Assembly (NCBI GenBank): GCA_019636235.1
Contig: JAHBXW010000011.1
Coordinates: 1 to 64,000, forward strand
Length of the DNA stretch: 64,000 nt
Direction of reading: 5' to 3'
Source of the DNA: Planctomyces sp.
Lineage (GTDB): Bacteria > Planctomycetota > Planctomycetia > Planctomycetales > Planctomycetaceae
The stretch's first letter is position 1; each line of letters starts with the position of its first letter. The position numbers were made by a program, and so were the translations under genes. The notes below the pieces were generated by a model. It saw only the letters and a list, made by a program, of their open reading frames with translations. It made no database searches and was not told the DNA's origin. Below are positions 9,767 to 64,000 of this stretch, one piece after another.

Positions 9767-9770
9767 CCGC

Positions 9771-10229
9771 TCAGGCCTCGTGCACCCCGTTGTCCAGCTC
9801 GACGATCTCCAGCCAGTACTTGCCCAGCGTCCGGATGACCTCCACCAGAGATTCGAACGTCACCGGCTTGGTGATGTAGGACGCGGCCCCCAGATTGTAC
9901 GTCCGGTAAATGTCCTCTTCCGCCTTGGACGTGGTCATCACGATCACCCGGATGCTCCGCAGGTCCGGATCGTTGCGGATGTCCTGCAGCACCTCGCGGC
10001 CGTCCTTTTTCGGCATGTTGAGGTCCAGCAGAATGATGCCCGGACGCGGGGACGAATCCGGATCGGAGAATTTCCCGCGGCGGTACAGATAGTCGAGCAG
10101 TTCGACGCCGTCCTCGACGAAGACCAGCTCGTTGGCGAGCTGGCTGGCCTCGAAGGCCTCCTTCGTCATCAGACGATCATCCGCGTCGTCGTCCGCCATC
10201 AGGATCGTGATCGGGTTGCGATTGGGCAT
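9771..10229 (-). CDS. single-domain response regulator (Rcp1-like)
   Basis: A 152-residue stand-alone receiver of the type that partners phytochrome-like or CHASE3 kinases. Key residues are DDDADD (acid pocket), Asp69 in GIILLDLNMPKKDG, Thr in VIVMTTSKAE and Lys in SYITKPVTF. There is no output domain. Its 5' end overlaps the 3' end of the upstream kinase gene by 53 bases and its stop is 4 bases from the hybrid kinase, indicating translational coupling in one operon. It is probably a phosphate shuttle between the two kinases. Confidence 0.92.
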   Translation of the reverse strand: MPNRNPITILMADDDADDRLMTKEAFEASQLANELVFVEDGVELLDYLYRRGKFSDPDSSPRPGIILLDLNMPKKDGREVLQDIRNDPDLRSIRVIVMTTSKAEEDIYRTYNLGAASYITKPVTFESLVEVIRTLGKYWLEIVELDNGVHEA

Positions 10230-48743: not shown

Positions 48744-48865
48744 GCGGTCTCATACCTCAGCGCCAGCGGCCCCTGCGGCCGCGGCCCGCCAAATCGTTCG
48801 ACGCCTCCCCAGTGCGTCGTCCCGCCCAACGCCCCGCCTTGTCTGAACGTCCTGAAGGACCGCCG

Positions 48866-51283
48866 ATGAACGTAAGACTGGTCTGCCTGTGCGGCGCCAT
48901 GTGTCTGGCCGCCGCGGCCGATGCCGCGGAGTTGACTGAACTCCGAGTCGCGCCGACCAGCGTGAACCTCAGCACCGCGCGGGACCGTCAGTCCGTGGCC
49001 GTGCAGGCGTTCTACTCGGACGGCGTCACCCGGGATGTCGCCGGTGAAGCGGCCTGGACTGTGGCCGCCCCGGACGTCGCGCGGATCGACGGTCGGACCT
49101 TGTATCCCGCCGGCGACGGCACGACGGAACTGAAGATCTCGTTCGAAGGCCGCGACGTCGTCGTTCCGGTCGTCGTCGAGCGCGCCGCCGAACAGACGCC
49201 CGTCAGCTTCAAGCTGGACGTGATGCCGGTGTTCATGAAGGCCGGCTGCAACTCCGGCAGCTGCCATGGCGCGGCCCGCGGCAAGGACGGGTTCCGCCTG
49301 TCGCTGTTCGGCTACGACGCGGACGGCGACCATTACCGGATCACGCGCGAGCAGAGCGGCCGTCGGATCGACCTGGCGATTCCGTCCGCGAGCCTGATGG
49401 TCGAGAAGTCGGTCGGCGACGTGCCGCACACCGGCGGCAAGCGGTTCGCGGCCGATTCGGAACTCAACGCCATGCTGGTCTCCTGGATCGGGGCCGGCTG
49501 CCCGCAGGATCCGCAGGATGTCGCCTGGTGCACGAGCATCGAGTTGTTCCCCGAGAACGGCGTGCTCGATGGCGACGGCGAGACGCAGCAGCTGACGGTG
49601 CTCGCGAAATACTCCGACGGCACGGACCGGGACGTGACGCATCTGTCGGTGTTTCTGACCAACAATGAGACGTCGGCCGCGGTGTCGCAGGACGGACTCG
49701 TGACGGCCGGGGCCCGCGGCGAAGCCTTCGTGATGGCCCGCTTCGCGACGCACACCGTCGGCTCGCAGTTCATCGTGATTCCCAAGGGCCTCAAGTACGA
49801 ACAGCAGCCCGACGCTCCGTCGAACTACATCGACGAATTCGTGGCCGCCAAGCTGCAGAAGCTGCGGATGCACCCGTCCGGCTTGTGTTCGGACGAGGAG
49901 TTTCTGCGGCGGGTGTCGATCGACCTGGTCGGCCTGACGCCCTCGCGCGAAGAGTACGCGGCGTTCCTCGCGGACTCCGATCCGGACAAGCGGGCGCGGA
50001 AGGTGGACGAACTGCTGGAGCGCAAGGAATTCACCGAGCTGTGGGTCTCCAAGTGGGCCGAATGGCTGATGATGCGGTCCAGCCAGATCGTGTCCTACAA
50101 GTCGATCGTGCTGTACTACCAGTGGCTGAGCGATCAGATCGCGAAGAACGTGCCCCTGGACGAGATGGTGCAGGACCTGCTGGGAGCGACGGGCGGGACG
50201 TTCAAGACTCCGCAGACGAACTTTTACGAGACGGAGCGGGACCGCCTGAAGGTGGCGGAGAACGTGGCCCAAATCTTCATGGGCATGCGGATTCAGTGCG
50301 CCCAGTGCCACAACCATCCGTTCGATCGCTGGACGCAGGACGACTATTACAACTTCGCGGCCTTCTTTGCCCAGGTGGGGCGGAAGGCGGCTGAGGACCC
50401 GCGCGAGCAGATCATCTTCAACGCCGGCGGCGGCGAGGTGCAGCACGTAGTGACGGGGCAGAATGCGGTTCCGCACTTCCTGGGAGGCGGCAAGGCCGAA
50501 ACGGCCGGCAAGGACCGTCGCGAGGTGCTCGCCGGCTGGCTGGCCTCGCCCGAGAACCCATACTTCGCCCGGAACTTCGCGAACCGCGTGTGGCAGCACT
50601 TCTTCGGCATCGGCATCGTTGAGCCGGTGGACGATGTGCGGATCAGCAACCCGGCGTCCAATCCGGAGCTGCTGGACGAGCTGGCGCGGCGGTTCACCGA
50701 TTCCCGGTACGACTTCAAGCAACTGGTGCGGGACATCTGCAACTCGAAGACCTATCAGCGGTCGACCGGCCGGAACGAATCGAACCAGACCGACGAGCTG
50801 AACTTCGCGCATCAGAACATCCGCCGGATCAAGGCGGAGTCCATGCTGGACATCATCAGCCAGGTGACGGACACGAAGGACAAGTTCCGGGGCCTGCCGT
50901 TGGGGGCCCGGGCGGTGCAGATCGCGGACGGTGCGACGAGCGACTACTTCCTGACGACGTTCGGCCGGGCGACGCGGGAGACGGCCTGCTCCTGCGAAGT
51001 GAAGATGGAGCCGACCCTGTCGCAGGCGCTGCACCTGATGAACGGCGACGTCGTAAACAACAAGATCGCCGCGGGCGGGGTGATTGACGCGTTGAGCCAG
51101 GGGGACCGCCCGCCGCTGGACGTGGTGGCCGACCTGTACATCACCTGTCTGTCGCGGCGCCCGACCGAGGAGGAGCTGGCGACGCTGTCGCCGATGTTCG
51201 CCGAGGGGAGCGACGTGAAAAAGGCTTTGGAGGATGTGTTCTGGGCGCTCCTGAACAGCCGAGAAATGTTGTTCAATCACTAG
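48866..51283 (+). CDS. BIG2-PSD1-type planctomycete cytochrome protein (DUF1549-DUF1553)
   Basis: An 805-residue secreted protein with signal peptide MNVRLVCLCGAMCLAAAADA. Two Ig-like BIG2 domains (about 25-105 and 235-320) flank a segment with CNSGSCHG (Cys128-His134, a CX4CH variant of the heme motif). DUF1549 follows (NYIDEFVAAKLQKLRMHPSG, with CAQCHNHPFDRW near 477), then DUF1553 (VLAGWLASPENPYFARNFAN; AHQNIRRIKAESMLDIIS; MEPTLSQALHLMNGDVV). It is a different architecture from the PSD1 protein at 17271-19637. It is the first gene of an operon with a DUF2314 and a WD40-cytochrome gene, without DUF1501. Function unknown. Confidence 0.9.
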   Translation: MNVRLVCLCGAMCLAAAADAAELTELRVAPTSVNLSTARDRQSVAVQAFYSDGVTRDVAGEAAWTVAAPDVARIDGRTLYPAGDGTTELKISFEGRDVVVPVVVERAAEQTPVSFKLDVMPVFMKAGCNSGSCHGAARGKDGFRLSLFGYDADGDHYRITREQSGRRIDLAIPSASLMVEKSVGDVPHTGGKRFAADSELNAMLVSWIGAGCPQDPQDVAWCTSIELFPENGVLDGDGETQQLTVLAKYSDGTDRDVTHLSVFLTNNETSAAVSQDGLVTAGARGEAFVMARFATHTVGSQFIVIPKGLKYEQQPDAPSNYIDEFVAAKLQKLRMHPSGLCSDEEFLRRVSIDLVGLTPSREEYAAFLADSDPDKRARKVDELLERKEFTELWVSKWAEWLMMRSSQIVSYKSIVLYYQWLSDQIAKNVPLDEMVQDLLGATGGTFKTPQTNFYETERDRLKVAENVAQIFMGMRIQCAQCHNHPFDRWTQDDYYNFAAFFAQVGRKAAEDPREQIIFNAGGGEVQHVVTGQNAVPHFLGGGKAETAGKDRREVLAGWLASPENPYFARNFANRVWQHFFGIGIVEPVDDVRISNPASNPELLDELARRFTDSRYDFKQLVRDICNSKTYQRSTGRNESNQTDELNFAHQNIRRIKAESMLDIISQVTDTKDKFRGLPLGARAVQIADGATSDYFLTTFGRATRETACSCEVKMEPTLSQALHLMNGDVVNNKIAAGGVIDALSQGDRPPLDVVADLYITCLSRRPTEEELATLSPMFAEGSDVKKALEDVFWALLNSREMLFNH

Positions 51284-51364
51284 GGGTCGCCGCGGCCCGC
51301 CGGGTCGCCGCGAATGCCTGCAAGGTCAACCGCTCAAACACGTTATGCACGGAGGATTGACGCC

Positions 51365-51946
51365 ATGATTTCACTCGCCCGTTGGACCCGAAGCGAACGC
51401 CGCAGCCTGCTTCTGGGCAGCGCGCTGTGCGTCGCCGGCACGACCGGCATGTTCGGACTGTTCTCCGGAGATTCGATCGGCGCGGACGGACAGCGTCCCC
51501 GCGACCGCCGCAAAGCGGAAATTCAGCGGACGGCCGGCGAAGAGGCCGCTGCGGCCGAGTACGCCGCGAAGATGGAAGCCGCCATGGACCAGGCGTCCGA
51601 GAAGCTGGACGATTTCATCGCGGCCCTGAAGAAGCCGGCGGCGACGCAGAAGGACTTCTCGGTGAAGTACCTGGTCGAGCAGGGGGAGGCCGGGGAATAC
51701 CTGTGGGTCAATGAAGTGAAGTTCGACGGCAAGAAGTTCACGGGGAAGGTCGCCAACCATCCGCAGGTCGTGAAGACCCTGAAATTCGGCCAGCAGGTGG
51801 CCCTGCAGGAGGACGAAATCGACGACTGGATGTACGTCGACGACGGCAAGCTGAAGGGCGGGTTCACGATTCGCGCACAGCGGGAAATGCTGAAGGGCGC
51901 GGACCGCAAGAAGTTCGACGAGCAGTTCAAGTTCACGTTTGAGTAA
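51365..51946 (+). CDS. exported DUF2314 family protein
   Basis: A 193-residue protein. The N-terminus has a basic/hydrophobic segment (RRSLLLGSALCVAGTTGMFG) that could be a signal or anchor, then a charged helix (EEAAAAEYAAKMEAAMDQAS). The DUF2314 domain is clear: GEYLWVNEVKFDGKKFTGKV, DEIDDWMYVDDGKLKGG and FTIRAQREML. The start at ATG 51365 follows CGGAGGATTGACGCC. It sits between the BIG2-PSD1 and WD40 genes on the same strand, so it is probably a third component of that exported system. A homologous DUF2314 fragment lies at the start of the window. Confidence 0.82.
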   Translation: MISLARWTRSERRSLLLGSALCVAGTTGMFGLFSGDSIGADGQRPRDRRKAEIQRTAGEEAAAAEYAAKMEAAMDQASEKLDDFIAALKKPAATQKDFSVKYLVEQGEAGEYLWVNEVKFDGKKFTGKVANHPQVVKTLKFGQQVALQEDEIDDWMYVDDGKLKGGFTIRAQREMLKGADRKKFDEQFKFTFE

Positions 51947-52038
51947 TCGAGCGGCGTCGGACCGCGGATGCCGGCCCGGGCGCGAGAGCGTTCCGGGCCG
52001 TTCCCGGCCGGCCCGTTGCAACGACCCAGGTCGCCGCC

Positions 52039-53991
52039 ATGTTTCGATCCGCTGTTGTGGTGTGTCTCGTCAGCAGTGCCGCTGTCGTCGTCGCGGAGGA
52101 CGCCCCGGCTGAGAAAGTGACGTACGCCGACCACGCGCTGCCGGTGCTGCGCCAGCGGTGCGGATCGTGCCACAACGCGAACGACAAGAAGGGGGGCCTG
52201 GTCGTCGACAACTACGCCGCGCTGCTGGCGGGCGGTTCGTCGGGGCCGGTGCTGGAAGGCGGCGATCTTTCGGCCAGCTATCTCTGGAATCTGGTGAACC
52301 ATGATTCCGAGCCGAAGATGCCGCCCAACAGCGACAAGCTGCCGCAGGCGGAACTTGACGTCCTGAGCAAGTGGATCGAAGGGGGCCTGCTCGAGAAGTC
52401 GGACAGCGTCGCCAAAATCCGGATGACGAAGTCGCTGGCCAAAATTGAAGTCAGCGGCGCGCGGCCGGAATCCATTGCGATGCCGGATCGCTACCTCGGC
52501 GAACCGAAAGTGCTGTCGGAATCGTCGAACGCGGTGACGGCGCTGGCGGTCAGCCCCTGGGCGCCGCTGGCGGCCGTGTCGGGACACCGGCAGATCGCGC
52601 TGTGGAACACGGCGACGTTCGAGTTGCTGGGCGTGCTCGATTATCCGGAAGGTCAGCCGCACATTCTGAAGTTCAGCCGGAACGGGTCGCTGCTGCTGGC
52701 GGGGGGCGGCCGGGGCGGGGCGTCGGGACGCGTCGTGGTGTTCGACGTCGCGACGGGCGAGCGCGAGGTCGAGGTGGGCGATGAGTATGACGTCGTCCTG
52801 GGCGCGGACATCAGCCCCGATCAGACGCAGATCGCCCTGGGCGGCCCCAAGAAAATGCTCCGCGTCTACGCGACGGAAACGGGCGAACTGCTGTACGAAA
52901 TGAAGAAGCACACCGACTGGATCACGGCGGTGGAGTACAGCCCGGATGGCGTGCTGCTCGCCTCGGGCGACCGCGCGAACGGCCTGGTCGTGTGGGAGAG
53001 CTTCACGGGGCGGGAGTTCTACACCTTGAACGGCCACCAGGGGGCGGTGAACGATGTGTCGTGGCGTCCGGACAGCAACGTGCTGGCCTCGGCCAGCGAG
53101 GACAACACGATCCGGCTGTGGGAGATGACGAACGGAACGCAGGTGAAGTCCTGGAATGCTCATGGCGGCGCCGCGGCGGTGGATTACACCCGGGACGGCC
53201 GGCTGGTTTCCACGGGGCGCGACCGCGTTGTGAGGCTGTGGAACGGAGACGGTGGCCAGGAGAAGGAATTCGGCGGCATGGCGGACGTCGGCCTGGAGGT
53301 CGCGTTCGACAACGAAAGCGAACGCGTCCTTGGCGGCGACTGGACCGGCACGGTGCGGATCTGGAACGTCGCGGACGGCTCGGAGCTGTTCCAGTTCCGG
53401 ACCAGCCCGGAACCGGCGTCCGTTCGAATGACCGCCCTCCTGCAGCAGATCGAACAGGCGGAGACGCAGGCGGCGCAGCAGACGGCGGCCGTGACGTCGC
53501 TGACCGAGGCGCTGGCGCCGCTGAAAGCGGCAGCCGACATGGCGGCGGCCGAGGCGGCGGCGGCGGCGACGACGCGTGAGGAATCCATTTCGGCTCGCGC
53601 GGCGGCGGATGCGGTGCTGGCCGAGAAGCAGGCGGCGGTCGCGGCGGCGGAAGAAGCGCTGGTCGCGGCCCGCGCGGCGTATGAGAAGGCGATCCTCGAG
53701 AAGGATGCCGTGGCGCGGACGCAGTCGGCGGCCGACTCGCAATTGGCGGCCGCGAAAGACGCCGAAGCGGCCGCGACGCAGATGGCCGCGGAGAAACAGG
53801 CGGCCGCAGAAGCGGCCGCGGCCGCGGCGAATGGGACCGACGAGCAGCGACAGGCGCTGGCGGCCGCGCGGGCGGCGGCTCAAGCGGCCTCGGAGCGGGC
53901 TGCGACGCTGAAGGCTCAGCGGGAACGGCTCGAAGCCATCATTCAGGCCGCGTTGCAGGGCGAAGCCAACCAGCAGGCGTCGGCGAACTGA
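52039..53991 (+). CDS. secreted cytochrome c - WD40 protein with Ala-rich coiled coil
   Basis: A 650-residue protein. The signal peptide (MFRSAVVVCLVSSAAVVVAE) is followed by a cytochrome c domain with CGSCHNANDKKGGLVVDNY and a distal Met in EPKMPPNSDKL. WD40-type repeats (about 150-440) end in LWNT, VVWESF, IRLWEMTNG, VVRLWNG and VRIWNVADG, probably a seven-blade propeller. The last 200 residues are a long alanine/glutamate-rich coiled coil (AAATQMAAEKQAAAEAAAAA). This is the third gene of the operon and presumably acts with the BIG2-PSD1 protein outside the cytoplasm. Function not established. Confidence 0.88.
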   Translation: MFRSAVVVCLVSSAAVVVAEDAPAEKVTYADHALPVLRQRCGSCHNANDKKGGLVVDNYAALLAGGSSGPVLEGGDLSASYLWNLVNHDSEPKMPPNSDKLPQAELDVLSKWIEGGLLEKSDSVAKIRMTKSLAKIEVSGARPESIAMPDRYLGEPKVLSESSNAVTALAVSPWAPLAAVSGHRQIALWNTATFELLGVLDYPEGQPHILKFSRNGSLLLAGGGRGGASGRVVVFDVATGEREVEVGDEYDVVLGADISPDQTQIALGGPKKMLRVYATETGELLYEMKKHTDWITAVEYSPDGVLLASGDRANGLVVWESFTGREFYTLNGHQGAVNDVSWRPDSNVLASASEDNTIRLWEMTNGTQVKSWNAHGGAAAVDYTRDGRLVSTGRDRVVRLWNGDGGQEKEFGGMADVGLEVAFDNESERVLGGDWTGTVRIWNVADGSELFQFRTSPEPASVRMTALLQQIEQAETQAAQQTAAVTSLTEALAPLKAAADMAAAEAAAAATTREESISARAAADAVLAEKQAAVAAAEEALVAARAAYEKAILEKDAVARTQSAADSQLAAAKDAEAAATQMAAEKQAAAEAAAAAANGTDEQRQALAAARAAAQAASERAATLKAQRERLEAIIQAALQGEANQQASAN

Positions 53992-54410
53992 GTTCGCGAG
54001 GGAGTGGATTGGCTGGACGCCGACGGGTCCTGATGCCGATCAACAGGGTGAGGAGTGCGTCGTGCCAGCCCCATGCTGACGGGGCCGGTCGGCTGAGTCG
54101 CCGACCATCGATTCTCTCCCGTAAGGACTTTTGATCCTCAGGCACGACGCCGCAGTCGCGACAGGTTCCGCCCCATCGGCGGGCCTCCGGCGGGACTGTG
54201 TTCAGCCAGGATGGTTGCGTTGGAGCAACCATGATCCATTCCGATTCCGGCTCGTCCCGCGGCAACAACTTCTCTTCCCGCAAGGGCTTTCGTGGCCGTG
54301 GCAAACGCCCGTTGTCCCCCGGCGTGGTGCTGCGGTATGATCCCGCCGATGCGCTGGCCGATTCCGACCCCAAGGGGACAGGCGGTGCAGAATTTTCGAA
54401 GGACGCCGAC
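53992..54410. other. flgM upstream region
   Basis: This 419-base gap contains a small perfect hairpin: ATGGTTGC (54211-54218), loop GTTGGA, GCAACCAT (54225-54232). A weak GCCGATTC near 54357 is reminiscent of a sigma-28 -10 element, but no matching -35 was seen. Nothing else recognised. Confidence 0.4.
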
Positions 54411-54701
54411 ATGGAAGTGACGGGCGCCGGTTTTGTGGGGGGCGCAGGTTCCGTCCGCCCGATTCAACCGCTGTCGACGGGAGGCGTTGCGCCTTCCGCG
54501 GCCTCGGGGCTGCAGGCTCCGCGGGATGAAATCCTGATCTCGGACGCGGCCCGCTCGTTGAGCGAAATGCAGATGGACCCTCAGGTCCGCGCGGCGCGGC
54601 TCGCGGAAATCCGCTCGGCGATCGAATCCGGAACGTATGACACCCCGCAGCGGCTGGAAGCGGCCATCGAGAAGATGATCGCCGGCTGGCAGCGGCACTG
54701 A
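54411..54701 (+). CDS. flgM: anti-sigma-28 factor FlgM
   Basis: A 96-residue protein from ATG 54411, preceded by GAAGGA. It starts MEVTGAGFVGGAGSVRPIQP and has the FlgM C-terminal helices: DEILISDAARSLSEMQMD, then RAARLAEIRSAIESGTYDTP and QRLEAAIEKMIAGW. FlgM binds and inhibits the flagellar sigma factor FliA until the hook is complete, then is exported. It implies that the organism has flagella (swarmer stage). No other flagellar gene is in the window. Confidence 0.85.
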   Translation: MEVTGAGFVGGAGSVRPIQPLSTGGVAPSAASGLQAPRDEILISDAARSLSEMQMDPQVRAARLAEIRSAIESGTYDTPQRLEAAIEKMIAGWQRH

Positions 54702-54791
54702 CCGATCGCGGCGGCCATCCCGGGCTCGCGGCCAGCCCGGACGCCAGGACGGCGCGTCGCGACGGATCCCCCGGACGACGGCTCCGCGGAA

Positions 54792-55496
54792 TCACTCCGC
54801 GGGTTCGCCCTTCGCCGGTCCGACGATTCGTGTCCGGTGGCTTTCGATGTGCGTCCGCAACTGCGTCTCGGCGCGGGACACGCGGCCGGCGCGGAGATCG
54901 TCGAGGATCGCCTGGTGGGCGACCACTCCGCCCGACCATTCCGCCTTGCGGACGCTTTCGCGAAACCGCTGAAAGAAGACGGCCAGGACGTCGGCGAAGG
55001 CCATCAACGGCGTCAGGCCGCTGGCCTCGATCAGGCTGCGGTGGAACTCGATGTCCAGCGTGACCCAGCGCTGCAGGGTCCGCGCATCCCGGAGGCGGGC
55101 GTTGATGCCGCTGAGCCCATCGTAAAGGGCGGGGTCGTCCTTCATGCGGCGGGCGACGTGCGGCAGAACGCCCGTTTCGATGATCACGCGCGTGTCGATC
55201 AGCACGGCGGGGTCGGCCTCCTGCAGCGCGGGATTGAGGCCCAGGTAGCCGGTGATGCGTTCCATCCGCATCCGGCCGACCGTCAATCCGCGCCCCGGCC
55301 GGGCTTCCAGAACGCCGATGAACTCCAGCGACTTGGTGGCCTCGCGAAGGCTCAGCCGGCTGACTCCGAAGCGGGTCGCGAGCTCGCCTTCGGTCGGCAG
55401 CCGATCCCCGGGCCGGAGCCCCTCGTCGGCGATGTATTGCTGGATGCGCTGGGCGACGACGTCCCGCAACCGGGTCCGGCCGATGGTTTCCAGCAT
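54792..55496 (-). CDS. FadR/GntR-family transcriptional regulator
   Basis: A 234-residue regulator from ATG 55496. The N-terminal winged HTH of the GntR type (LRDVVAQRIQQYIADEGLRP, then RLPTEGELATRFGVSRLSLR) is followed by an FCD ligand-binding domain (about 85-215) with DTRVIIETGVLPHVARRM, LDIEFHRSLIEASG and HQAILDDLRAGR, including the Asp/His residues that bind metal and small carboxylates in FCD proteins. It diverges from the dehydrogenase gene at 55654 over 157 bases containing a FadR-like palindrome (55568-55578). It probably represses the six-gene operon until a hydroxyacid or related carboxylate is present. Confidence 0.92.
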   Translation of the reverse strand: MLETIGRTRLRDVVAQRIQQYIADEGLRPGDRLPTEGELATRFGVSRLSLREATKSLEFIGVLEARPGRGLTVGRMRMERITGYLGLNPALQEADPAVLIDTRVIIETGVLPHVARRMKDDPALYDGLSGINARLRDARTLQRWVTLDIEFHRSLIEASGLTPLMAFADVLAVFFQRFRESVRKAEWSGGVVAHQAILDDLRAGRVSRAETQLRTHIESHRTRIVGPAKGEPAE

Positions 55497-55567
55497 GCAC
55501 AGGCTCCGAAACGGGAACGACGGCGGCGGGGCGAGGATGCTTGCAGCGCGCCGCGCCGGCGGGTAGT

Positions 55568-55578
55568 TTATCTGACAA
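55568..55578. promoter_or_regulatory. candidate FadR-type operator
   Basis: TTATCTGACAA is an imperfect palindrome (TTGTC / GACAA with one mismatch) and fits the FadR-subfamily consensus T-N-G-T-N3-A-C-N-A at all but one position. It lies in an AT-rich patch of the divergent region, 75 bases before the dehydrogenase start and 71 bases before the regulator start. A direct repeat ATCTGA occurs at 55570 and 55578. The position would let the regulator control both directions. Confidence 0.45.
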
Positions 55579-55653
55579 TCTGATGGTACGCCAGCCAGTC
55601 CCGGCGCGCCGCTTTCGCCCATTCCGTATCTGTCCCATCGCCCCAGGCCCCCG

Positions 55654-56631
55654 ATGAAGGTCGCGGTCACCGATTACTCGTTCCCCGACCTGTCCATTGA
55701 GGAGGGCCTGCTCCGCGGCCCGGACTGCGACATCGTCGCCTGGAAGGAACGGCGGACCCCGCGGGAACTCACGGAACTGGTCGCCGACGCGGGCGCCGTG
55801 CTGACCCAGTTCGCTCCCGTCAATGCGGAAGTCATCGCCGCAATGGGCCGGGCGCGGGTCATCGTCCGGTACGGCATCGGCGTCGACAATGTGGACCTGG
55901 CCGCCGCCCGCGCGCGGGGCATCCCGGTCTGCAACATCCCCGATTACTGCATCGACGAAGTCGCCGATCACACGCTGGCGTTCATTCTCGGCTGCACGCG
56001 GCAGGTCCTTCCGAATGCCTTGCTGGTCCGCGAGGGGCAATGGGGGCTGGCGACGCCTTTGGAGGGGCTCAGGACGCTGCGCGACCAGGTCGTGGGCTGC
56101 GTGGGCTTCGGGCGGATCGGCCGGGAAGTGCTGAGCCGGCTCGCGCCGTTCAAATGCCGACGGCTGGTGTTCGATCCGATGGTCCCCCCGGAAGCGATCC
56201 GCGCCGCCGGCTGCGAACCGTCGACGCTCGACGCGCTGCTCGCGGAATCGGACATCGTGACGCTGCACTGCCCGTCGACCCCCGAGACGCGGAAACTCCT
56301 GAACGCGTCGTCGATCGCCCGCATGCGGCCGGGCGGCATCGTGGTGAATCTCGCGCGGGGCGACCTCGTGGACACCGCGGCGCTGGCGGCGGCGCTCGAA
56401 TCCGGCCAACTGTCGGCAGCGGCCATCGACGTCTGCGACCCGGAACCGATCCCTGAAGACAGCCCGCTGCGCACGCTGCCCAACGTGATCGCGGCGTCGC
56501 ACATCGCCTCAGCCAGCCCGAAGGCGGTGCGGACGCTGCGTGAAACGGCTGCGCGGATCGCGGGCATGGCGCTGCGCGGCGAGCGTCTGCCGAACATCGT
56601 CAACGGCGTCGAGCCGGCGGGTGCTCCATGA
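55654..56631 (+). CDS. D-2-hydroxyacid dehydrogenase (C-terminal-binding-protein-like)
   Basis: A 325-residue NAD-dependent dehydrogenase of the D-isomer 2-hydroxyacid family. It has VIVRYGIGVDNVDL, the NAD loop VGCVGFGRIGREV, catalytic Arg in VVNLARGDLVD, Glu in DVCDPEPIPE and His in VIAASHIASAS. It should oxidise a D-2-hydroxyacid or reduce a 2-oxoacid; the true substrate is unknown. The gene overlaps the next by 4 bases (ATGA), so translation is coupled with the Ldh2-type dehydrogenase, which has the opposite stereochemical preference in many members. Confidence 0.9.
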   Translation: MKVAVTDYSFPDLSIEEGLLRGPDCDIVAWKERRTPRELTELVADAGAVLTQFAPVNAEVIAAMGRARVIVRYGIGVDNVDLAAARARGIPVCNIPDYCIDEVADHTLAFILGCTRQVLPNALLVREGQWGLATPLEGLRTLRDQVVGCVGFGRIGREVLSRLAPFKCRRLVFDPMVPPEAIRAAGCEPSTLDALLAESDIVTLHCPSTPETRKLLNASSIARMRPGGIVVNLARGDLVDTAALAAALESGQLSAAAIDVCDPEPIPEDSPLRTLPNVIAASHIASASPKAVRTLRETAARIAGMALRGERLPNIVNGVEPAGAP

Positions 56632-57698
56632 CGGCCGGCGGGCGGGTTCCGGTCGCCGCGCTGCGCGGGTTCGCGGCGGCGGCGTTTCGCGCCGTCGGGC
56701 TGGCGCCTGTCGATGCTGACGAGTCCGCCGATCTTCTGGCGACGACCGACGCCATGGGCGTCCACACTCACGGGACGAAGTTGCTGGCGGGGTATCTGCG
56801 AAAGTTGAAGGGGGGCGGCTACGATCCGGGCGCGCGTCCGCGGATCGAGCGGGAAGGCCCGGCGTGGGCGATTCTGGACGGGGCGTCGTCGTTGGGACAG
56901 ATCGGCTGTCTGCAGGCGGTGCGGACGGCGATCGACAAGGCCCGCGCCTGCGGCATCGCGTACGTCGGATTGCGGAACACGGGACACATCGGCGCCGCCG
57001 GGCAGTACGCGGCATTGGCCGCCCGCGAGGGGCTGATCGCAATGGTTGCCGGGAACGACATTCCCAGCGTGGCGGCGCCCGGTTCCTGCAGGGCCGTGCT
57101 GGGCAGCAACCCGATCGCCTATGGGATTCCCGTCGCAGGAGGGGATCCGATTCTGCTGGACATCGCGACGGCGGCCGTCGCGGGCGGCAAAGTCTACGCG
57201 GCGCTGCAGCGCGGCGAGAGGATTCCGCCGACCTGGTTGATCGGCCCCGACGGCCATCCGACGTGCGATGGCTCGCTGTATCCCCAGCAGGCGTCGCTGG
57301 CGCCGATGGCCGGCCACAAGGGCTACGGGTTCGGCCTGTGGTGCGAAGTGCTGTCCGCCGTGCTGCCGGCAGGGCACAGCACATGGCAGGTGGGGAGCTG
57401 GATCTTCGATGAGCCCTCGCGGCCGTCGTGGCACAATGCGGCGTTCACGGTGATTGATGTCGGCCAGTTGACGCCGCGCGGGGAATTCGACGCCCGGTTG
57501 CGGCGGCTGATTGATGAGCTGCATGCCGCGCCCCCGGCGGAAGGCACGCAGGGAGTCGAGCTGCCGGGCGAACGGGAGTGGCGCTGGCTGCGCCGGTCGG
57601 AGGCGGACGGCATCGAGTTGCCGGCCGATGTGCGGTTGAAGCTCCGGGAGGCTGCGGCGGTCGCTGAATTGCCATTGCCGGAATGGTGCGCTGGCTGA
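56628..57698 (+). CDS. Ldh2/MDH-type 2-hydroxyacid dehydrogenase
   Basis: A 356-residue NAD(P)-dependent dehydrogenase of the malate/L-lactate/ureidoglycolate/sulfolactate family (Ldh2). Features are DAMGVHTHGTKLLAGYLRKL (the catalytic-site His-x-His region), NTGHIGAAGQYA, SNPIAYGIPVAGGDPILLDI and MAGHKGYGFGLWCEVLS. It overlaps the preceding gene by 4 bases. A pair of stereochemically opposite dehydrogenases could racemise a hydroxyacid via its oxoacid, as in SlcC/ComC sulfolactate metabolism; whether sulfolactate is the substrate here cannot be decided from sequence. Confidence 0.88.
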   Translation: MTAGGRVPVAALRGFAAAAFRAVGLAPVDADESADLLATTDAMGVHTHGTKLLAGYLRKLKGGGYDPGARPRIEREGPAWAILDGASSLGQIGCLQAVRTAIDKARACGIAYVGLRNTGHIGAAGQYAALAAREGLIAMVAGNDIPSVAAPGSCRAVLGSNPIAYGIPVAGGDPILLDIATAAVAGGKVYAALQRGERIPPTWLIGPDGHPTCDGSLYPQQASLAPMAGHKGYGFGLWCEVLSAVLPAGHSTWQVGSWIFDEPSRPSWHNAAFTVIDVGQLTPRGEFDARLRRLIDELHAAPPAEGTQGVELPGEREWRWLRRSEADGIELPADVRLKLREAAAVAELPLPEWCAG

Positions 57699-57735
57699 CG
57701 AATTCATCAGATCCGGTCCTGCTTGGGAGGGAAGC

Positions 57736-59496
57736 ATGACGAGACATCCACACGGCCGCTCACATCTGCACCGGGGGGGCTCGCCGATCGGCGCGGGGCT
57801 CGCGCGACGGGCCGCGACGCTGGCGGCCGCCGCGGCGCTGGTCGCCGCCCTCTCAATGACGTCTGGCGCGGTCGCGGACGAACCGTCCAGGTTCGTCGAC
57901 CACTCGCTGCTGATCGCGCCCGAGCTGCCCTGCACGTGGCCCTCGTATCCGTTCCCCCGATTTCAGATCACCCATCAGCGGCGGATCGGTCCGGATTCGG
58001 CGTACAACGTCGACGTTCTGTTGATCGACGGCAACACGGGGACGCAGCTCGACGTGCCGCCGCATTCGGTGGCGCGTCCGGACCTGAACCGCGAAAAGTC
58101 GGGGCCGTTGGGGCTGGCGTTCACCGACCGGATCGAGGCCTGGCAGTTCGGCGGCGAGGCGTGCGTCGTCGATGTCCGGGACCTGCTCGACCAGGCGCCC
58201 AAGGGAGTCAGCCCGCTGGTTCTGCGGCAGCACGTCGAACGGTTCGAAGCGGCCAACCGTCCGCTGCGGTTCGGGGATGTGGCGCTGTTTCGCAGCGACT
58301 ATTCGGACCGCTACTACCGCCCCTTTCCGGAGGGGCGGCGATTCATCGCGGACGTCCTTGATCGGCAGGCGCCGGGGTATCCGGATCCTGATCCGGACTG
58401 CATGGAGTTTCTCGCCAGCCGCGGCGTGATGGCTCTCGGAACGGACAGCGCCAGCATGGGGCCGTTGCCCGATCTCGCGGAGCCGACGCATTACGCCGGG
58501 TTGAAGCACGGCATGATCTGGACGGAGAGCGCGACGAACCTGGGAGCGCTGCCGGCGACGGGGGCGTTCTATTGCATGCTGGGCCCCCGGCACGAAGGCG
58601 GTCCCTACGGCGAGGGGCGGGCCTTCTCGATCGTCGGCGGCGAGTTGCCGGCGCGGCTCATCGACTCGGCTCGGAACCGCCGGGCAGTCGAATTGTCGCC
58701 CGTGCTGTCGCCCCGCCATCCGGTGACGAATCCCGGGATCGGTTCCGGGGAGCACCGCCAGACGTACTTGAAGATCGATTTTCTGTACTCCGAGTACCTG
58801 GACCTGTGGCATCACGCGCATCTCATGGACGCGATGGCGGGGACGCATCTCGTGCCGCCGTCTTACGCTCTGCCCGAGAAAGAACTCGACGAACCCTACG
58901 CTCCCGAAGTCCGGGGCTGGCTGGAGGAATACGAGCGTCGCTATGGCGAGCGGGGCTTCAGTTCGCTGACGACCGAGAAAGTGCCGCTCGACTGGACGTG
59001 CGGTCCGGCGCGGGTCGTGGATGTGCGGTCGCTGGTCGGCAGCGTTGAACGTTCGCAGTGGCCGGCGTCGCCGGAGATCACCCCCGCGCTGCTGGAAGCC
59101 TGGGAGGCGGAACACGGACGGCTGCGCGAGGGGGACGTCGTGCTGCTCCGCACGGGCCATCTCGACGCGCATTATCGGGAGTCGCCGGAGGAGGCAGGCG
59201 CGTGGGCCGATCCGCAGGCCGGCAAGGCGGAAGGCTGGCCGGCGCTGGGGCCGGACGCCGTCGTGTTCTTGAAATCTCGAGGCATTCGCTGCGTGGGGAC
59301 GGATGCGCCGGACCTGGGGGGCGTCGATGCCCGGCGGGCGCTGATGACGTACTGGGCGCTCGGCAGCCGGGAGATGGTGGGCGTTGAGTTCCTGCACAAC
59401 CTGGGGAACGTGCCCGACGGCGCGTACTTCCTGTTCGCGGCGCTGAAGATCGCGGACTGCCATGGGGGCCCGGGCCGGGCCATCGTCCTGTACTGA
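57736..59496 (+). CDS. secreted two-domain cyclase family protein (KynB-like)
   Basis: A 586-residue protein with a long signal peptide ([20 protein letters not shown]). Two domains of the cyclase/kynurenine formamidase family lie in tandem. Each has a recognisable core (first: LRFGDVALFRSDYSDRYY, GVMALGTDSASMGP; second: LREGDVVLLRTGHLDAHY, GIRCVGTDAPDLGG). The family metal motif HxGTHxDxPxH is incomplete in both: the first reads NTGTQLDVPPH (Asp and last His kept), the second AGTHLVPPSY (middle His kept). The retained ligands are complementary, so a composite site or loss of metal binding is possible. Located 37 bases after the Ldh2 gene, in the operon. Confidence 0.82.
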   Translation: MTRHPHGRSHLHRGGSPIGAGLARRAATLAAAAALVAALSMTSGAVADEPSRFVDHSLLIAPELPCTWPSYPFPRFQITHQRRIGPDSAYNVDVLLIDGNTGTQLDVPPHSVARPDLNREKSGPLGLAFTDRIEAWQFGGEACVVDVRDLLDQAPKGVSPLVLRQHVERFEAANRPLRFGDVALFRSDYSDRYYRPFPEGRRFIADVLDRQAPGYPDPDPDCMEFLASRGVMALGTDSASMGPLPDLAEPTHYAGLKHGMIWTESATNLGALPATGAFYCMLGPRHEGGPYGEGRAFSIVGGELPARLIDSARNRRAVELSPVLSPRHPVTNPGIGSGEHRQTYLKIDFLYSEYLDLWHHAHLMDAMAGTHLVPPSYALPEKELDEPYAPEVRGWLEEYERRYGERGFSSLTTEKVPLDWTCGPARVVDVRSLVGSVERSQWPASPEITPALLEAWEAEHGRLREGDVVLLRTGHLDAHYRESPEEAGAWADPQAGKAEGWPALGPDAVVFLKSRGIRCVGTDAPDLGGVDARRALMTYWALGSREMVGVEFLHNLGNVPDGAYFLFAALKIADCHGGPGRAIVLY

Positions 59497-59555
59497 ACTG
59501 ACGGTCGCTGGCGGGTCCCGCACGGCAAAGTGTGGGGAGGCGCGGCGCCGGAACG

Positions 59556-61142
59556 ATGGAGGCGACGACGAACATGACGCAGGCCGGCGCGATCCCCCCC
59601 TGGGACAAGGCGGAGCTTCCCGAGCCCCGCCCCCTGTCCTGGCGGAACTGGACCAGCTTCATTGGTCCCGGCATCGTGATGATGGGGATTCAGATCGGCG
59701 GCGGCGAATGGCTGCTGGGTCCGACGGTGACGGCGAAATACGGCGGCGGGCTGATGTGGATCGCGACCATCGCGATTCTCTGCCAGGTGTTTTACAACCT
59801 GGAATGCGGCCGATACGCGCTGTACTGCGGCGAGCCGGTGCTGACGGGCTTCATGCGCTGCCGCCCGGGTCCGCCGTTCTGGCTGGGGCTGATGCTGCTG
59901 CTGAACCTTTCGGCGCTGGTGCCGGGCCTCTCAACGCATGGCGCGGCGATCATCGCGTCGCTGATTCTGGATCGTCCGCCGACGCTCGACGACCGCTGGC
60001 TGGTGACGGCGCTGGCCTACGCGTGCCTGTTTGGAGTCGCGCTGCCGGTGCTGATCGGCGGCAAGGTGTATAACGTGCTGCAGGTGGTGATGACGGCCAA
60101 GGTCATCATTGTGCTGGGGTTCTGCCTGACGATCGGCATCCTGTTTGTCAGTCCGGCGAGCTGGTGGAACGTGCTCAGCGGGTTCGTGAAGTTCGGGCAC
60201 GTGCCGGTCAGCGACGGGCAGGGGGGCGAAGTCGTCGTCAGCGGGCTGGGCCACTACTGGGGCACGGGGGAGTGGCCGGTGGTGTCGATGACCAGCATCG
60301 TCGTGCTGGGCGCGTTCGCCGGCTACGCGGGGGGCGGGGGACTGGCGAACTCGACGTATTCCAGTTTCGTGCGCGACAAGGGCTGGGGCATGGGCAGCCA
60401 GGTGGGCGCGATCCCCAGCGCCGTCGGCGGGCATGCCGTGGCGCTCAGCCATGTCGGCAAGGTGTTCGACCTGACGCCCGAGAACCTGCGGCGCTGGAAG
60501 GGATGGTGGCGTTACGTCATCACCGATCAGGTCTTCATCTGGGCCCCGGGGTGCTTCATGGGCATGGCCCTGCCGGCCCTGATTTCGATGCAGTTCTCGC
60601 AGTATTCGACCATCACCGGCGAACAGGCCAGCGTCGCGCAGGCGCTGATCACGGCCGACGGCATCCGCAACGCGGGGTTCAGCCCCGTCGTCGCGCAGAT
60701 CCTGTGGCTGGCCGCGCTGTTCACCGGCCTGATGGTCATGCTGCCCAGCCAGATGTCGATCGTGGACGATTTCAGCCGTCGCTGGACGGACGCCATCTGG
60801 ACGGCCAACCGCCGCGTCCGCGACACCATGCGGCCGCATCAGGTGAAATACATCTACTACGCCATCCTGGGCAGCTACGTGCTGTGGTCGTTCGTGTGCG
60901 CGTACTTTTTCAGCGCCGTGCCGCGGCTGATGACCGACTTCATCGCCAACTTCAACAACCTGGCGCTGGGGGTGACGTCGTTTCAGCTGCTGTGGATCAA
61001 CCATCGGCTGTTGCCGAAGGCGGTCCGCCCGCGGTGGCATCACTCCCTGGGGGTGCTGTGCTGCGGGACGTTCTACCTGGGCCTGACGTGGCTGGTGTTC
61101 GCGTACAAGATCTGGCCGCTGATGACGGGCCGGGGAGCATGA
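59556..61142 (+). CDS. Nramp-like membrane transporter without metal motif
   Basis: A 528-residue integral membrane protein of about 12 helices, distantly Nramp-like (LeuT fold). ATG 59556 was chosen because a GGGGAGG lies upstream; GTG 59532 is possible. TM1 reads FIGPGIVMMGIQIGGGEWLL; Nramp proteins have D-P-G-N here, which binds the metal, and it is replaced by G-G-G-E. The TM6 region reads FAGYAGGGGLANSTYSS, without the M-P-H motif. Other helices are well formed (AKVIIVLGFCLTIGILFVS). It lies between a cyclase and an SDR gene in a catabolic operon, so an organic carboxylate may be carried rather than Mn2+ or Fe2+. Confidence 0.78.
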   Translation: MEATTNMTQAGAIPPWDKAELPEPRPLSWRNWTSFIGPGIVMMGIQIGGGEWLLGPTVTAKYGGGLMWIATIAILCQVFYNLECGRYALYCGEPVLTGFMRCRPGPPFWLGLMLLLNLSALVPGLSTHGAAIIASLILDRPPTLDDRWLVTALAYACLFGVALPVLIGGKVYNVLQVVMTAKVIIVLGFCLTIGILFVSPASWWNVLSGFVKFGHVPVSDGQGGEVVVSGLGHYWGTGEWPVVSMTSIVVLGAFAGYAGGGGLANSTYSSFVRDKGWGMGSQVGAIPSAVGGHAVALSHVGKVFDLTPENLRRWKGWWRYVITDQVFIWAPGCFMGMALPALISMQFSQYSTITGEQASVAQALITADGIRNAGFSPVVAQILWLAALFTGLMVMLPSQMSIVDDFSRRWTDAIWTANRRVRDTMRPHQVKYIYYAILGSYVLWSFVCAYFFSAVPRLMTDFIANFNNLALGVTSFQLLWINHRLLPKAVRPRWHHSLGVLCCGTFYLGLTWLVFAYKIWPLMTGRGA

Positions 61143-61152
61143 GGTCGTGGCG

Positions 61153-61986
61153 ATGAACCTGTTTGATCTGAGTGGCCGTGTGGCGGTGGTGTCGGGGGCG
61201 GCGCAGGGGCTGGGCCGCGCGACGGCGCTGGCGGTCGCGGAGCAGGGCGCGGACGTCGCGCTGGTCGACCGCAATGCGGCGGGGGCCGAGGCGACCGCGG
61301 CCGAGATTCGGAAGATGGGACGCCGAACGCTCGTTTCGGGCTGTGACGTCTCGTCGCCGGAGGCGATCGCCGGGCTGTTTCGCGAAGTGGATCGCGAGTT
61401 CGGGCGCGTGGATTTCCTGGGGAACATCGCGGGGGACGGGCATCTCGCCCCACCGGAGGAGCTGTCGATCGATGACCTGCAGCGGGTGTTGCAGAACCTT
61501 GTCGTGGGCCGGTTCGCCATGTGTCAGGAGGCGGGTCGGCGGATGCTGGCCCGGGGGCGGGGCTCGATCATGAACATCGGATCGCTGGCCAGCACGACGG
61601 CGCTGGGCCGGGGCCATGTGGCGTACAGCATGGCGATGGGCGCGGTGGTGCAGATGACGCGCGAGCTCAGCACCGAATGGAGCGCCCGCGGCGTGCGGGT
61701 CAACGCCGTCCTGCCGGCGCAGGTCGTGAATCCCAGCCTGGAGGCGCGGATGTCGCAGGACCCGCTGCTGGAGGGCCGGTTCCTGAAGGGCATCCCGGCC
61801 GGTCGGCTGGGTCAGCCACGGGACATCATGGGTCTGGCGGTGCTGCTGGCCTCGGACGCCTCCGAGTGGATCACCGGGGCCATCATTGCCATGGATGGCG
61901 GCAACCTGGCGATGAATGCTGGCGGCACGCCGGGCCATGAAGCGCATCGCGTGCAGTCATTTCGAGCGGAAACGAGCAGGACGTAA
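61153..61986 (+). CDS. short-chain dehydrogenase/reductase, catalytic Lys missing
   Basis: A 277-residue classical SDR. ATG 61153 is preferred over GTG 61147 because the AGG at 61142 is then 8 bases away. It has the cofactor loop VVSGAAQGLGRAT, NIAG in place of NNAG, Ser in IMNIGSLAS and the Tyr in AYSMAMGAVV. At Tyr+4 the sequence has Met where nearly all SDRs have Lys (Y-S-M-A-M instead of Y-x-x-x-K), so catalysis would be impaired or altered. The C-terminus (AIIAMDGGN) is typical. It starts 10 bases after the transporter and is directly followed by the E1 gene (TAAATG). Confidence 0.85.
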   Translation: MNLFDLSGRVAVVSGAAQGLGRATALAVAEQGADVALVDRNAAGAEATAAEIRKMGRRTLVSGCDVSSPEAIAGLFREVDREFGRVDFLGNIAGDGHLAPPEELSIDDLQRVLQNLVVGRFAMCQEAGRRMLARGRGSIMNIGSLASTTALGRGHVAYSMAMGAVVQMTRELSTEWSARGVRVNAVLPAQVVNPSLEARMSQDPLLEGRFLKGIPAGRLGQPRDIMGLAVLLASDASEWITGAIIAMDGGNLAMNAGGTPGHEAHRVQSFRAETSRT

Positions 61987-63996
61987 ATGCCCACAGCCAC
62001 TGTCGACGCCCCCAGCGTCCCCGATGTCGCGTTCGCGCTGTACCGGACGATGCAGATCATCCGGCAGACGGAAGAGGAGCTGGCCCGCTGCCACCAGCGG
62101 GGCCTGATTCATGGAGCCTGCCACACCTACGTGGGGCAGGAGGCCATCGCCGCCGGCGTCTGCGCCCATTTGACGCGCGACGACGTCGTGTTCAGCACGC
62201 ACCGCGGGCACGGGCACGCCCTGGCGAAGGGCATGCCGCCCAAGGAACTCATGGCCGAGCTGTTCGGCCGCGAGACCGGTTGCTCGCGGGGGCGGGGGGG
62301 CAGCATGCATCTGTTCTCCCCCGAGATCGGCATGATGGGGACCAGCGGCATCGTCGGCCCCTGCATCCTGCAGGCCTGCGGAGGCGGGTACAGCGCGAAG
62401 CTCACGCGCTCCGGCCGGGTCGCCGTCGCGTTCTTCGGGGACGGCGCCGTAAACAACGGAGCCTTCCACGAGGGCCTGAACATGGCCAGCATCTGGAAAC
62501 TGCCGGTGCTGTTCATCTGCGAGAACAATCAGTTCGCGACGGAGGTGCCGTTCGCCTATGCCAGCGGCAATCCGAGCGTCGGCAACCGCGGCGCCGCCTA
62601 TGGCCTGCCCGGGTTCGAACTCGACGGCAACGACGTCCGCGAGATTCATCGCGTCGCCGGGGACGCGGTCCGCCGGGCCCGCGCGGGGGACGGTCCGACG
62701 CTGATCGAATGCCGCACCTACCGGACCCGCGCTCATGCCGAGGGCATGGGAGACTTCTCCTATCGCACGCGCGAGGACGTCGAGGAGTGGAAGCAGCGCT
62801 GCCCGATCGTCCGTCTGCGATCGGAACTGGTCGCCGGGAAGGGGGCCAAGACGGCTGCGAAATCGCTGGATGCGATTGATGAGGACGTCCGCCAGATGGT
62901 TCAGGAGGCTCGGGAGTTCGCAGAATCGAGCCCCGAGCCCGATCCGGCGACGGCGCTCGAGCATGTTTATGCGCCGCCGCGCGTCATCCGCTCCGCGCCG
63001 CCGGAACCGGGGACCGGGACCCGCACGCTGACGTATTCCCAGGCGACGCTGGAGGCGCTGGCGGCCGAGATGGAGCGGAATCCGAACATCTTCGTGATGG
63101 GAGAAGGCATCGGCGCCCGCGGCGGGAACTTCCTGACGACGAAGGGGCTGTACGATCGGTTCGGTCCGGAGCGGCTGTGCGATACGCCGATCTGCGAGCG
63201 CGGGTTCGTCGGGCTGGCCTGCGGCGCGGCGATGACGGGCACGCGGCCGGTCATCGACTTCATGTTCGCGGACTTCGTGCTCGACGGATTCGGCGAGATC
63301 GTCAATCAGATCGCGAAGATGCAGTACATGTCGAGCGGGCGGCTGCGGATGCCCGTGTTGCTGCGGGGCTGCATCGGCATCGGGCATTCCGCGGCGACGC
63401 ACCATTCAGGCAGCTACTACGGGATGTACGGGCAGGTTCCCGGCCTGCGGGTCGTGGTTCCTTCATCGCCCGCGGACGCCCGGGGGCTGTTGACGCATGC
63501 CCTGCGCTGCGACGATCCGGTCCTGTTTCTGGAGCATCGCGAGATTCTGCAGGCCAGGGGGCCGGTGCCCGAGGGGGACTGGGAGATCGAGTTCGGCCGC
63601 GCGCGGATCGTCCGCCCGGGGCGAGATGTGACGGTCGTCGCCCTGGCCCGGATGGTGCACTTCGCCGCCGCGGTCGCCGAGGAACTCGCGGGGCAGGGCG
63701 TCTCGGTGGAACTCATCGACCCGCGGACGGTCCTGCCGCTGGATGTCGACGCCATTCTCGAGTCGGTGGGGCGCACGGGACGGCTGCTGATCGTCGATGA
63801 GCCTCCTGCGCCGTTCGGCGTTTCGGCGGAGATTGCGGCCCGGCTGGCGGACGATGGCTTCAACGATCTCGACGCCCCCATCCGCCGCGTGACCGGGCGG
63901 TTCTGCCCGACGCCCTACAGCCCGTCGCTGGAGTCGGCCGTCGCGCCTGGTCCGGCCGACATCCGCGCGGCCATTGAACGACTGATGAAGGAATAG
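61987..63996 (+). CDS. fused alpha-beta E1 2-oxoacid dehydrogenase (TPP-dependent)
   Basis: A 669-residue fusion of the usual separate alpha and beta subunits of pyruvate/branched-chain/acetoin-type dehydrogenase E1. The alpha half (about 1-320) has HRGHGHALAKGM, GCSRGRGGSMHLF and the TPP motif GDGAVNNGAFHEGL with its trailing ENNQF. The beta half (about 345-669) has VMGEGIGARGGNFLTTKGLY, CERGFVGLACGAAMTG, VDEPPAPFGVSAEI and the C-terminal FCPTPYSPSLE. It would decarboxylate a 2-oxoacid; the E2 and E3 subunits are not in the window and may be downstream. Zero-base gap to the SDR gene shows coupling. Confidence 0.92.
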   Translation: MPTATVDAPSVPDVAFALYRTMQIIRQTEEELARCHQRGLIHGACHTYVGQEAIAAGVCAHLTRDDVVFSTHRGHGHALAKGMPPKELMAELFGRETGCSRGRGGSMHLFSPEIGMMGTSGIVGPCILQACGGGYSAKLTRSGRVAVAFFGDGAVNNGAFHEGLNMASIWKLPVLFICENNQFATEVPFAYASGNPSVGNRGAAYGLPGFELDGNDVREIHRVAGDAVRRARAGDGPTLIECRTYRTRAHAEGMGDFSYRTREDVEEWKQRCPIVRLRSELVAGKGAKTAAKSLDAIDEDVRQMVQEAREFAESSPEPDPATALEHVYAPPRVIRSAPPEPGTGTRTLTYSQATLEALAAEMERNPNIFVMGEGIGARGGNFLTTKGLYDRFGPERLCDTPICERGFVGLACGAAMTGTRPVIDFMFADFVLDGFGEIVNQIAKMQYMSSGRLRMPVLLRGCIGIGHSAATHHSGSYYGMYGQVPGLRVVVPSSPADARGLLTHALRCDDPVLFLEHREILQARGPVPEGDWEIEFGRARIVRPGRDVTVVALARMVHFAAAVAEELAGQGVSVELIDPRTVLPLDVDAILESVGRTGRLLIVDEPPAPFGVSAEIAARLADDGFNDLDAPIRRVTGRFCPTPYSPSLESAVAPGPADIRAAIERLMKE

Positions 63997-64000
63997 CCGT

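Follow-up and report, generated by a model that had tools for sequence, protein, structure and literature searches.

An Nramp-related carrier without the canonical metal-site motifs in a putative catabolic operon of Planctomyces sp., probably an importer of a small organic acid

The window analysed here is a 64,000-nucleotide stretch of a Planctomyces sp. contig (JAHBXW010000011.1, positions 1 to 64,000). Toward its end, a divergent GntR/FCD regulator gene precedes genes for a D-2-hydroxyacid dehydrogenase, an Ldh_2 dehydrogenase, a PF04199 cyclase, a membrane carrier, an SDR, and the E1 and E2 components of a 2-oxoacid dehydrogenase (Table 1). Pfam placed the cyclase on one side of the carrier and the SDR on the other, as a sequence-only reading of the window had stated. 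The genes form a putative single transcript, and no second transporter was found among those identified from 55654 to the end of E2. The carrier frame opens at ATG 59556 and closes with the stop codon at 61140–61142; GTG 59532 and ATG 59574 are alternative starts. The below-cut-off NCBIfam matches of the regulator include LldR, NanR, and PdhR. The E1 alpha–beta fusion was the single one of its kind found in its genome, the next best match being 29% identical. PF04199 cyclases usually carry the metal motif HxGTHxDxPxH. The present cyclase reads DGNTGTQLDVPPH in domain 1 and MAGTHLVPP in domain 2, and its metal motif is altered. GNTGTQ or GNVGTQ was kept in 28 of the 31 orthologs examined, and the remaining three have HTGTQ. 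An Rfam scan of 53500–64000 at E ≤ 1 gave one sub-threshold match and no riboswitch, and riboswitch control of the carrier was rejected. Upstream of the operon, 48863–53988 encodes a PSCyt2/PSD1 protein, a DUF2314 protein, and a PSCyt1 + WD40 protein; ORF clusters c6 and c8, each present in 13 of 42 fetched loci, were identified with these families by eye.

Table 1. Genes and sequence features of the locus (window coordinates).
Feature	Coordinates	Strand	Evidence or remark
GntR/FCD transcriptional regulator, divergent	54792..55502	-	Pfam GntR 2.7e-17, FCD 2.3e-14; start uncertain
D-isomer-specific 2-hydroxyacid dehydrogenase	55654..56631	+	PF02826 1e-53
Ldh_2 family dehydrogenase (malate/L-lactate/ureidoglycolate/sulfolactate type)	56628..57698	+	PF02615 4.2e-95
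Two-domain PF04199 "cyclase" hydrolase, hydrophobic N-terminus	57736..59496	+	PF04199 2.7e-33, two stretches
Nramp-related carrier	59556..61142	+	528 aa, about 11 predicted TM helices (grouped from the helices of the model), LeuT/APC fold
G48-G49-G50-E51 codons, TM1 position of DPGN	59697..59708	+	Alignments, clade conservation; AlphaFold2 helix break 47–48
G259–Y268 codons (GGGGLANSTY), unwound TM6 and start of TM6b, without MPH	60330..60359	+	Alignment, clade conservation, helix break 259–264
SDR-family dehydrogenase	61153..61986	+	PF13561 1.7e-51
2-Oxoacid dehydrogenase E1, alpha–beta fusion	61987..63996	+	PF00676 1.1e-74, PF02779 8e-41, PF02780 8.7e-35
E2 lipoyl acyltransferase, first bases	63999..64000	+	PF00198 1.2e-56 (L002:4000-5361); runs past the window to contig C3 position 65360

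The NCBIfam model Nramp_1 (NF037982) matched the carrier with E = 2.6e-42 and 145.5 bits, above its curated cut-off of 50, which places the protein in the Nramp superfamily. Pfam gave no family at E ≤ 1, the narrower PF01566 Nramp included. A phmmer search of the solved structures with the carrier (P0001) returned nothing at E ≤ 1, and a profile of its clade matched only two channels, which were discarded as chance-level. Aligning the clade with canonical Nramps by hhalign yielded weak, non-significant scores; GGGE was nonetheless aligned to DPGN. Therefore, the membership rests on the NCBIfam model and the fold. The AlphaFold2 model, built from 51 sequences (mean pLDDT 86.4, pTM 0.89), has a LeuT/Nramp fold with TM1 broken at 47–48 and TM6 at 259–264. 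In the VIA-align comparison, rows 1–25 were all Nramp-family structures, including the YcsG model 9a52 (Z = 25.1–31.0); KimA, amino-acid carriers, NSS, NKCC, and one further Nramp filled rows 26–50 (Z = 22.5–24.9). Foldseek returned Nramps intermixed with other APC carriers. By family model and predicted structure, the carrier is a divergent Nramp relative; the NF037982 match and the 25 top structural rows bear out its earlier description as Nramp-like.

The TM1 sequence of the carrier is FIGPGIVMMGIQIGGGEWLLG, and that of TM6 is GYAGGGGLANSTYSSFVRDKG. The GP pair at the start of TM1 is conserved: G37-P38 of the carrier aligned with G45-P46 of D. radiodurans Nramp, giving an offset of 8. Several structural rows showed the same offset (among them 36->44, 37->45, and 35->43), and others were off by one or more residues. 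With the GP-based offset, D56-P57-G58-N59 therefore corresponds to G48-G49-G50-E51. The control protein, E. coli MntH, showed DPGN at this site in the alignment. For TM6, the register is uncertain by about 1–3 residues, as the MAFFT alignment and the predicted break at 259–264 disagree; neither the Met nor the His of MPH is present at this site of the carrier in any register.

Conservation was assessed in 79 clade sequences of at least 499 aa, comprising the window protein and 78 of the best 80 contig loci (of 564); L110 and L153 were left out as fragments. G49, G50, E51, and W52 occur in all 79 sequences, and position 48 is Gly in 75 and Ala in four. N265 and R273 are invariant, whereas S266 and T267 are found in 68 and 70 sequences, respectively. 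Neither DPGN nor MPH occurs in any of the 79. Both motif claims of the sequence-only reading, G-G-G-E in place of D-P-G-N (in the offset-8 register) and the absence of M-P-H, were thus confirmed. Glu51 is the sole conserved acid of TM1. Across the same sequences, no Asp, Glu, His, Lys, or Arg of TM3 (106–138) reaches 95% conservation, no counterpart of the TM3 proton-pathway acid (E134 of D. radiodurans) was found, and the ionisable residues of TM9 (427–451) likewise fall short of 95%. The TM1 motifs of the other relatives examined were GSGE, SSGE, GAGE, GAGD, GTAD, GAAD, GPGT, and other non-DPGN strings. The carrier and the canonical proteins (D. radiodurans Nramp, E. coli MntH) share the predicted fold and helix order (Z up to 31.0 over 380 residues at 11% identity), the GP pair, and discontinuous TM1 and TM6. 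The carrier differs from them by lacking DPGN, MPH, a conserved ionisable residue in TM3, and a Pfam Nramp match at E ≤ 1.

In a midpoint-rooted tree of 41 proteins, clade 1, which contains the window carrier, stood beside clade 2, a group of GGGE paralogs with a second copy from the same genome, and then clade 3. Next came the Rubrobacter, Aureimonas, and haloarchaeal GSGE/SSGE group, a sister branch joined to clades 1–3 at 100/100; all 24 proteins were held together at this support. Deinococcus (98/86) and then the GSGEL type, with a third copy from the same genome, were further out. Canonical MntH was found in the other half of the tree, together with GPGT and related proteins. The carrier lies in the GxGE branch of the Nramp-related proteins, the root of the tree being the midpoint. 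It combines homology and fold with the absence of DPGN/MPH and of the TM3/TM9 proton-pathway residues, and it falls among the Nramp-related orphan outgroup, which is defined by the lack of the canonical motifs (PMC12873925). In the rooted tree reported by Gaudet's group, such motif-less proteins are paraphyletic to canonical Nramps (PMC12873925), and according to Shin et al. the outgroup may be seen as a connection to transporters whose substrates are not metals (PMC4072509). The sequence-only reading had held that the Mn2+/Fe2+ site was lost. Its canonical ligands are indeed missing, but "lost" is the less likely term because the published rooted tree sets the motif-less relatives outside canonical Nramps; probably, the site was never there, our own tree being unrooted but for its midpoint.

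Gene neighbourhoods were compared in the contig loci of the best 80 of 564 relatives, which are 53–80% identical to the carrier. Many of these contigs are short, gene runs are often cut by contig ends, and the flanking ORF calls are heuristic. Among the 80 loci, an SDR was found in 57, E1 in 45, E2 in 39, the cyclase in 32, the 2-hydroxyacid dehydrogenase in 29, and Ldh_2 in 22. FAA hydrolase (18), FGGY kinase (15), GntR (13), epimerase (7), and DHDPS (4) were rarer. At an identity of at least 40% and on the same strand, the counts were 54 for SDR, 45 for E1, 37 for E2, 27 for 2-hydroxyacid dehydrogenase, 21 for Ldh_2, and 13 for FGGY kinase. The 80-locus count includes weak matches to SDR (29–35% in L123, L139, and L171), 2-hydroxyacid dehydrogenase (34% and 38% in L123 and L140), Ldh_2 (31% in L133), E2 (36% and 39% in L139 and L161), and FGGY kinase (34% in L144 and L149). 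The SDR began within 4 kb downstream of the carrier in 54 loci, and 12 of the 80, a set with many short contigs, had no partner at all.

From the same 80, 31 relatives have at least 6.5 kb of upstream and 6 kb of downstream sequence. These well-flanked loci contained SDR in 25 cases (24 when same-strand genes of at least 40% identity are counted), E1 in 23, E2 in 21 (20), cyclase in 17, 2-hydroxyacid dehydrogenase in 14 (13), Ldh_2 in 12, FAA hydrolase in eight, and FGGY kinase in eight (6). Six were partnerless (L121, L146, L148, L158, L164, and L170), as were L163 and L175, which have shorter flanks. The 20 clade-1 loci of the genome set overlap with the 80 contig loci, so the two sets were not summed. 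Since the planctomycete loci share ancestry, the counts do not represent independent events. As a control, we used 17 clade-2 paralogs (16 fetched loci and the copy from the same genome), assigned by identity and motif; eight of them are also in the tree, and two have one short flank. Their loci contained no E1, E2, cyclase, Ldh_2, or 2-hydroxyacid dehydrogenase and a single SDR (36%). Outside planctomycetes, the carrier and SDR were found together in three MAGs named Verrucomicrobia (L125–L127), where L127 has an E2-like gene downstream, seen by eye and without a match at the threshold of the count, and in two named Bryobacterales/Acidobacteria (L179 with E1 and E2, L177 with the SDR alone). 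A fourth Verrucomicrobia MAG, L171, has E1, E2, and cyclase in another order. According to a heuristic hydropathy count, five of the 54 SDR-downstream loci encode another polytopic protein in the same-strand run: an L-lactate permease in L131 (4.2e-161, same gene run as the carrier), an MFS protein in L179, two ABC-type proteins, and a prepilin peptidase.

The optional genes gave hints of the substrate. The nearest model of the FAA hydrolase was 2,4-didehydro-3-deoxy-L-rhamnonate hydrolase, below the NCBIfam cut-off, and the nearest models of the FGGY kinase, the KdgD/DHDPS type, and the epimerase were all likewise below theirs; together, these four families appear to point to sugar acids. The L179 locus also holds a mandelate-racemase/enolase enzyme, and in L127 a lactate-racemase N-domain gene adjoins the carrier. 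Lactate racemase was rejected as a general partner, being present in two of the 122 loci searched. In the sister branch, seven haloarchaeal regions, four of which represent one shared Haloarcula locus, contained an L-lactate permease near the carrier in five cases and an FAD/Fe-S protein, which we take to be lactate-dehydrogenase-like, in six. H. pelagica has the gene rhcF (2,4-diketo-3-deoxy-L-rhamnonate hydrolase) at a distance of about 5 kb from the carrier. The Rubrobacter carrier is followed by LutB- and LUD-type genes, and an acid-sugar kinase is also present. Pfam confirmed the Halobellus permease, the H. hispanica FAD/Fe-S protein, and the Rubrobacter genes; the remainder follow the annotation. 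No lactate gene was seen in the regions examined near the relatives of Aureimonas, Deinococcus, and Halomicrococcus. Other Nramp-related genes stand beside a CoA transferase and a thiolase in Mesobacillus, beside an amidase in Rhodococcus, and, with the motif GPGT, directly before two hydantoinase/oxoprolinase-family genes in Haloferax (L099:4989-9825). A clear catabolic setting was not seen for the relatives in Ketogulonicigenium, Pseudoalteromonas, Skermanella, Rhizobium, and Mesorhizobium.

From the open reading frame, the predicted fold, the missing metal motifs, the conservation of the replacing motif, and the conserved neighbourhood, all obtained by computation, we infer a secondary carrier with the Nramp (LeuT/APC) fold. 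We think it reasonably probable that it imports a small organic acid for the surrounding operon, probably a 2-hydroxycarboxylate (such as lactate or glycerate) or a (deoxy)sugar acid; substrate, direction, and coupling are proposals. An organic acid is the best fit to the conserved catabolic neighbourhood. An organic acid or amide had been suggested before, and the acid part stood. The amide part found no specific support because the cyclase is rarer than SDR and E1 in the best 80 of 564 loci (32 against 57 and 45) and its first-domain motif is unusual.

As a mechanism, we propose that the substrate carboxylate would be held by backbone amides of unwound TM1 (GGG), facing unwound TM6 (GGGG), as in BasC. 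In BasC, the alpha-carboxyl group is reported to be bound through the backbone nitrogens of Ala20 and Gly21 in unwound TM1, and the amino group by carbonyls of TM1 and TM6 (PMC6472337). The invariant Glu51 would bind the driving ion, H+ or Na+, and two further invariant residues, Asn265 and Arg273 of TM6b, are candidates for contacts with the remainder of the substrate or for a role in gating. Once imported, the acid would be oxidised by the SDR and both hydroxyacid dehydrogenases, and the resulting 2-oxoacid would be converted into an acyl-CoA by E1/E2. The APC amino-acid carriers (BasC, Asc-1/SLC7A10, LATs; Z = 22.5–24.9) resemble the carrier in surrounding the substrate with an unwound TM1, glycine-containing in BasC, and an unwound TM6. 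They differ in that their structural similarity is below that of most Nramps and that the carrier has an invariant Glu after the TM1 glycines.

The catabolic setting has a precedent, albeit a disputed one, among the known Nramp-related proteins. PxpT, an NRAMP-family protein encoded in a C. glutamicum operon under a GntR-type regulator, is reported to be required for growth on 5-oxoproline (PMC13274462), whereas YcsG, 50% identical to PxpT, is reported to import Mn (PMC10448178). Therefore, gene context can mislead in this superfamily. The carrier resembles YcsG/PxpT in being an Nramp-related protein within a catabolic operon and in its predicted structure (Z = 29.4 to the YcsG integrative model 9a52); pxpABC is absent among the genes identified around the carrier. 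The partnerless loci and the related regions lacking a lactate gene speak against the organic-acid reading, and lactate could enter through the L-lactate permease in L131 and the haloarchaea, with the Nramp-like protein doing something else.

The first competing explanation, which we regard as unlikely, is that the carrier still moves a cation, most plausibly Mg2+ or another hard ion, for the operon enzymes. Glu51 would replace the TM1 acid, with the Asn/Ser/Thr residues of TM6b and backbone carbonyls serving as further ligands. The complete conservation of Glu51 and the polar positions 265–267 after the TM6 break are consistent with such a site. In addition, the Nramp-related NRMTs are reported to carry Mg2+ (PMC4072509), YcsG was described as an Mn importer despite its location in the pxp operon (PMC10448178), and the NCBI family model names such proteins "Nramp family divalent metal transporter". 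However, the D56 position holds no acid in the clade, TM3 has no conserved ionisable residue, no Rfam riboswitch lies near the carrier, and the adjacent genes belong to carbon catabolism and not to metal homeostasis. The genome itself has matches to other families able to import metals (ZnuA type, ZIP, and FeoB); a canonical DPGN Nramp was not detected in it, the three relatives found having GGGEW, GGGEW, and GSGEL. EleNRMT (7qia, 7qji; Z = 28.7–28.8), the single NRMT compared, likewise has the Nramp fold without the full metal motif, but it keeps the TM1 aspartate in the alignment (DAGG), whereas the carrier has Gly48 and its clade Gly or Ala throughout. The NRMT group, as first described, is under an M-box riboswitch, unlike the carrier in the region scanned, and no mgtE-like gene was found among the operon genes identified around the carrier.

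Less probable still is that the substrate is an organic molecule other than a simple hydroxy or sugar acid (an amino acid, amide, lactone, or sugar) or that the carrier exports a pathway product. After the Nramps, the next-best folds include the amino-acid exchangers SLC7A10 (Z = 24.9) and LAT2 (Z = 23.9), the PF04199-type cyclase, which often precedes the carrier, matches an arylformamidase model below its cut-off, and the Rhodococcus gene adjoins an amidase. However, many loci do without the cyclase, conservation is highest for the SDR and the 2-oxoacid dehydrogenase, and the sister branch is often near lactate genes. We consider it highly improbable that the carrier is a generic membrane protein whose neighbours are hitch-hikers, linked only by common descent of one planctomycete gene block: the loci are mostly planctomycete and six of the 31 well-flanked orthologs lie elsewhere, but carrier and SDR recur in the Bryobacterales/Acidobacteria and Verrucomicrobia MAGs, L171 has a different gene order, the paralogs are without the neighbourhood, and the TM1 GGE is invariant in 79 sequences.

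Should this branch transport hydroxy or sugar acids, its members in planctomycetes, haloarchaea, and actinobacteria that are annotated as metal transporters would have to be renamed, and the catabolism of sugar acids and lactate would gain an importer that had been missing. The evolution of a metal site on an amino-acid-carrier fold would then become directly testable with close relatives. More tentatively, the whole GxGE branch (GGGE here, GSGE/SSGE in the sisters) may consist of organic-anion carriers with an APC-type backbone carboxylate site, the metal-carrying Nramps having arisen by a change from G-x-G-E to D-P-G-N; we hold this to be possible but doubtful. If so, the carrier would be a living stage between amino-acid-type and metal carriers. 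No published description of the operon or of the GGGE Nramp clade was recognised among the literature matches listed, which consisted mostly of titles and abstract openings.

Several minor observations concern the relatives. In L146, a clade-2 and a clade-1 GGGEW carrier stand in tandem (7079-8815 and 8995-10581). The GGGEW paralog of the window's genome (L013:6520-8496, contig C23) has a long TM5–TM6 insert rich in DxDGDG-like repeats, which look calcium-binding by eye; Pfam gave no match. The GSGEL relative of the same genome (L003:6023-7666, contig C9) lies just downstream of a long ORF resembling RNA polymerase beta-prime, again by eye. The carrier had 13 matches in plasmid records, of which 11 were examined; one of these, from Nonomuraea, was without annotation. 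The plasmid relatives of Rhizobium (L096:4612-6947) and Mesorhizobium (L097:4567-6912) have a different TM1, LEIGS/LEVGS, and in both cases three small hypothetical genes flank the relative in the same arrangement.
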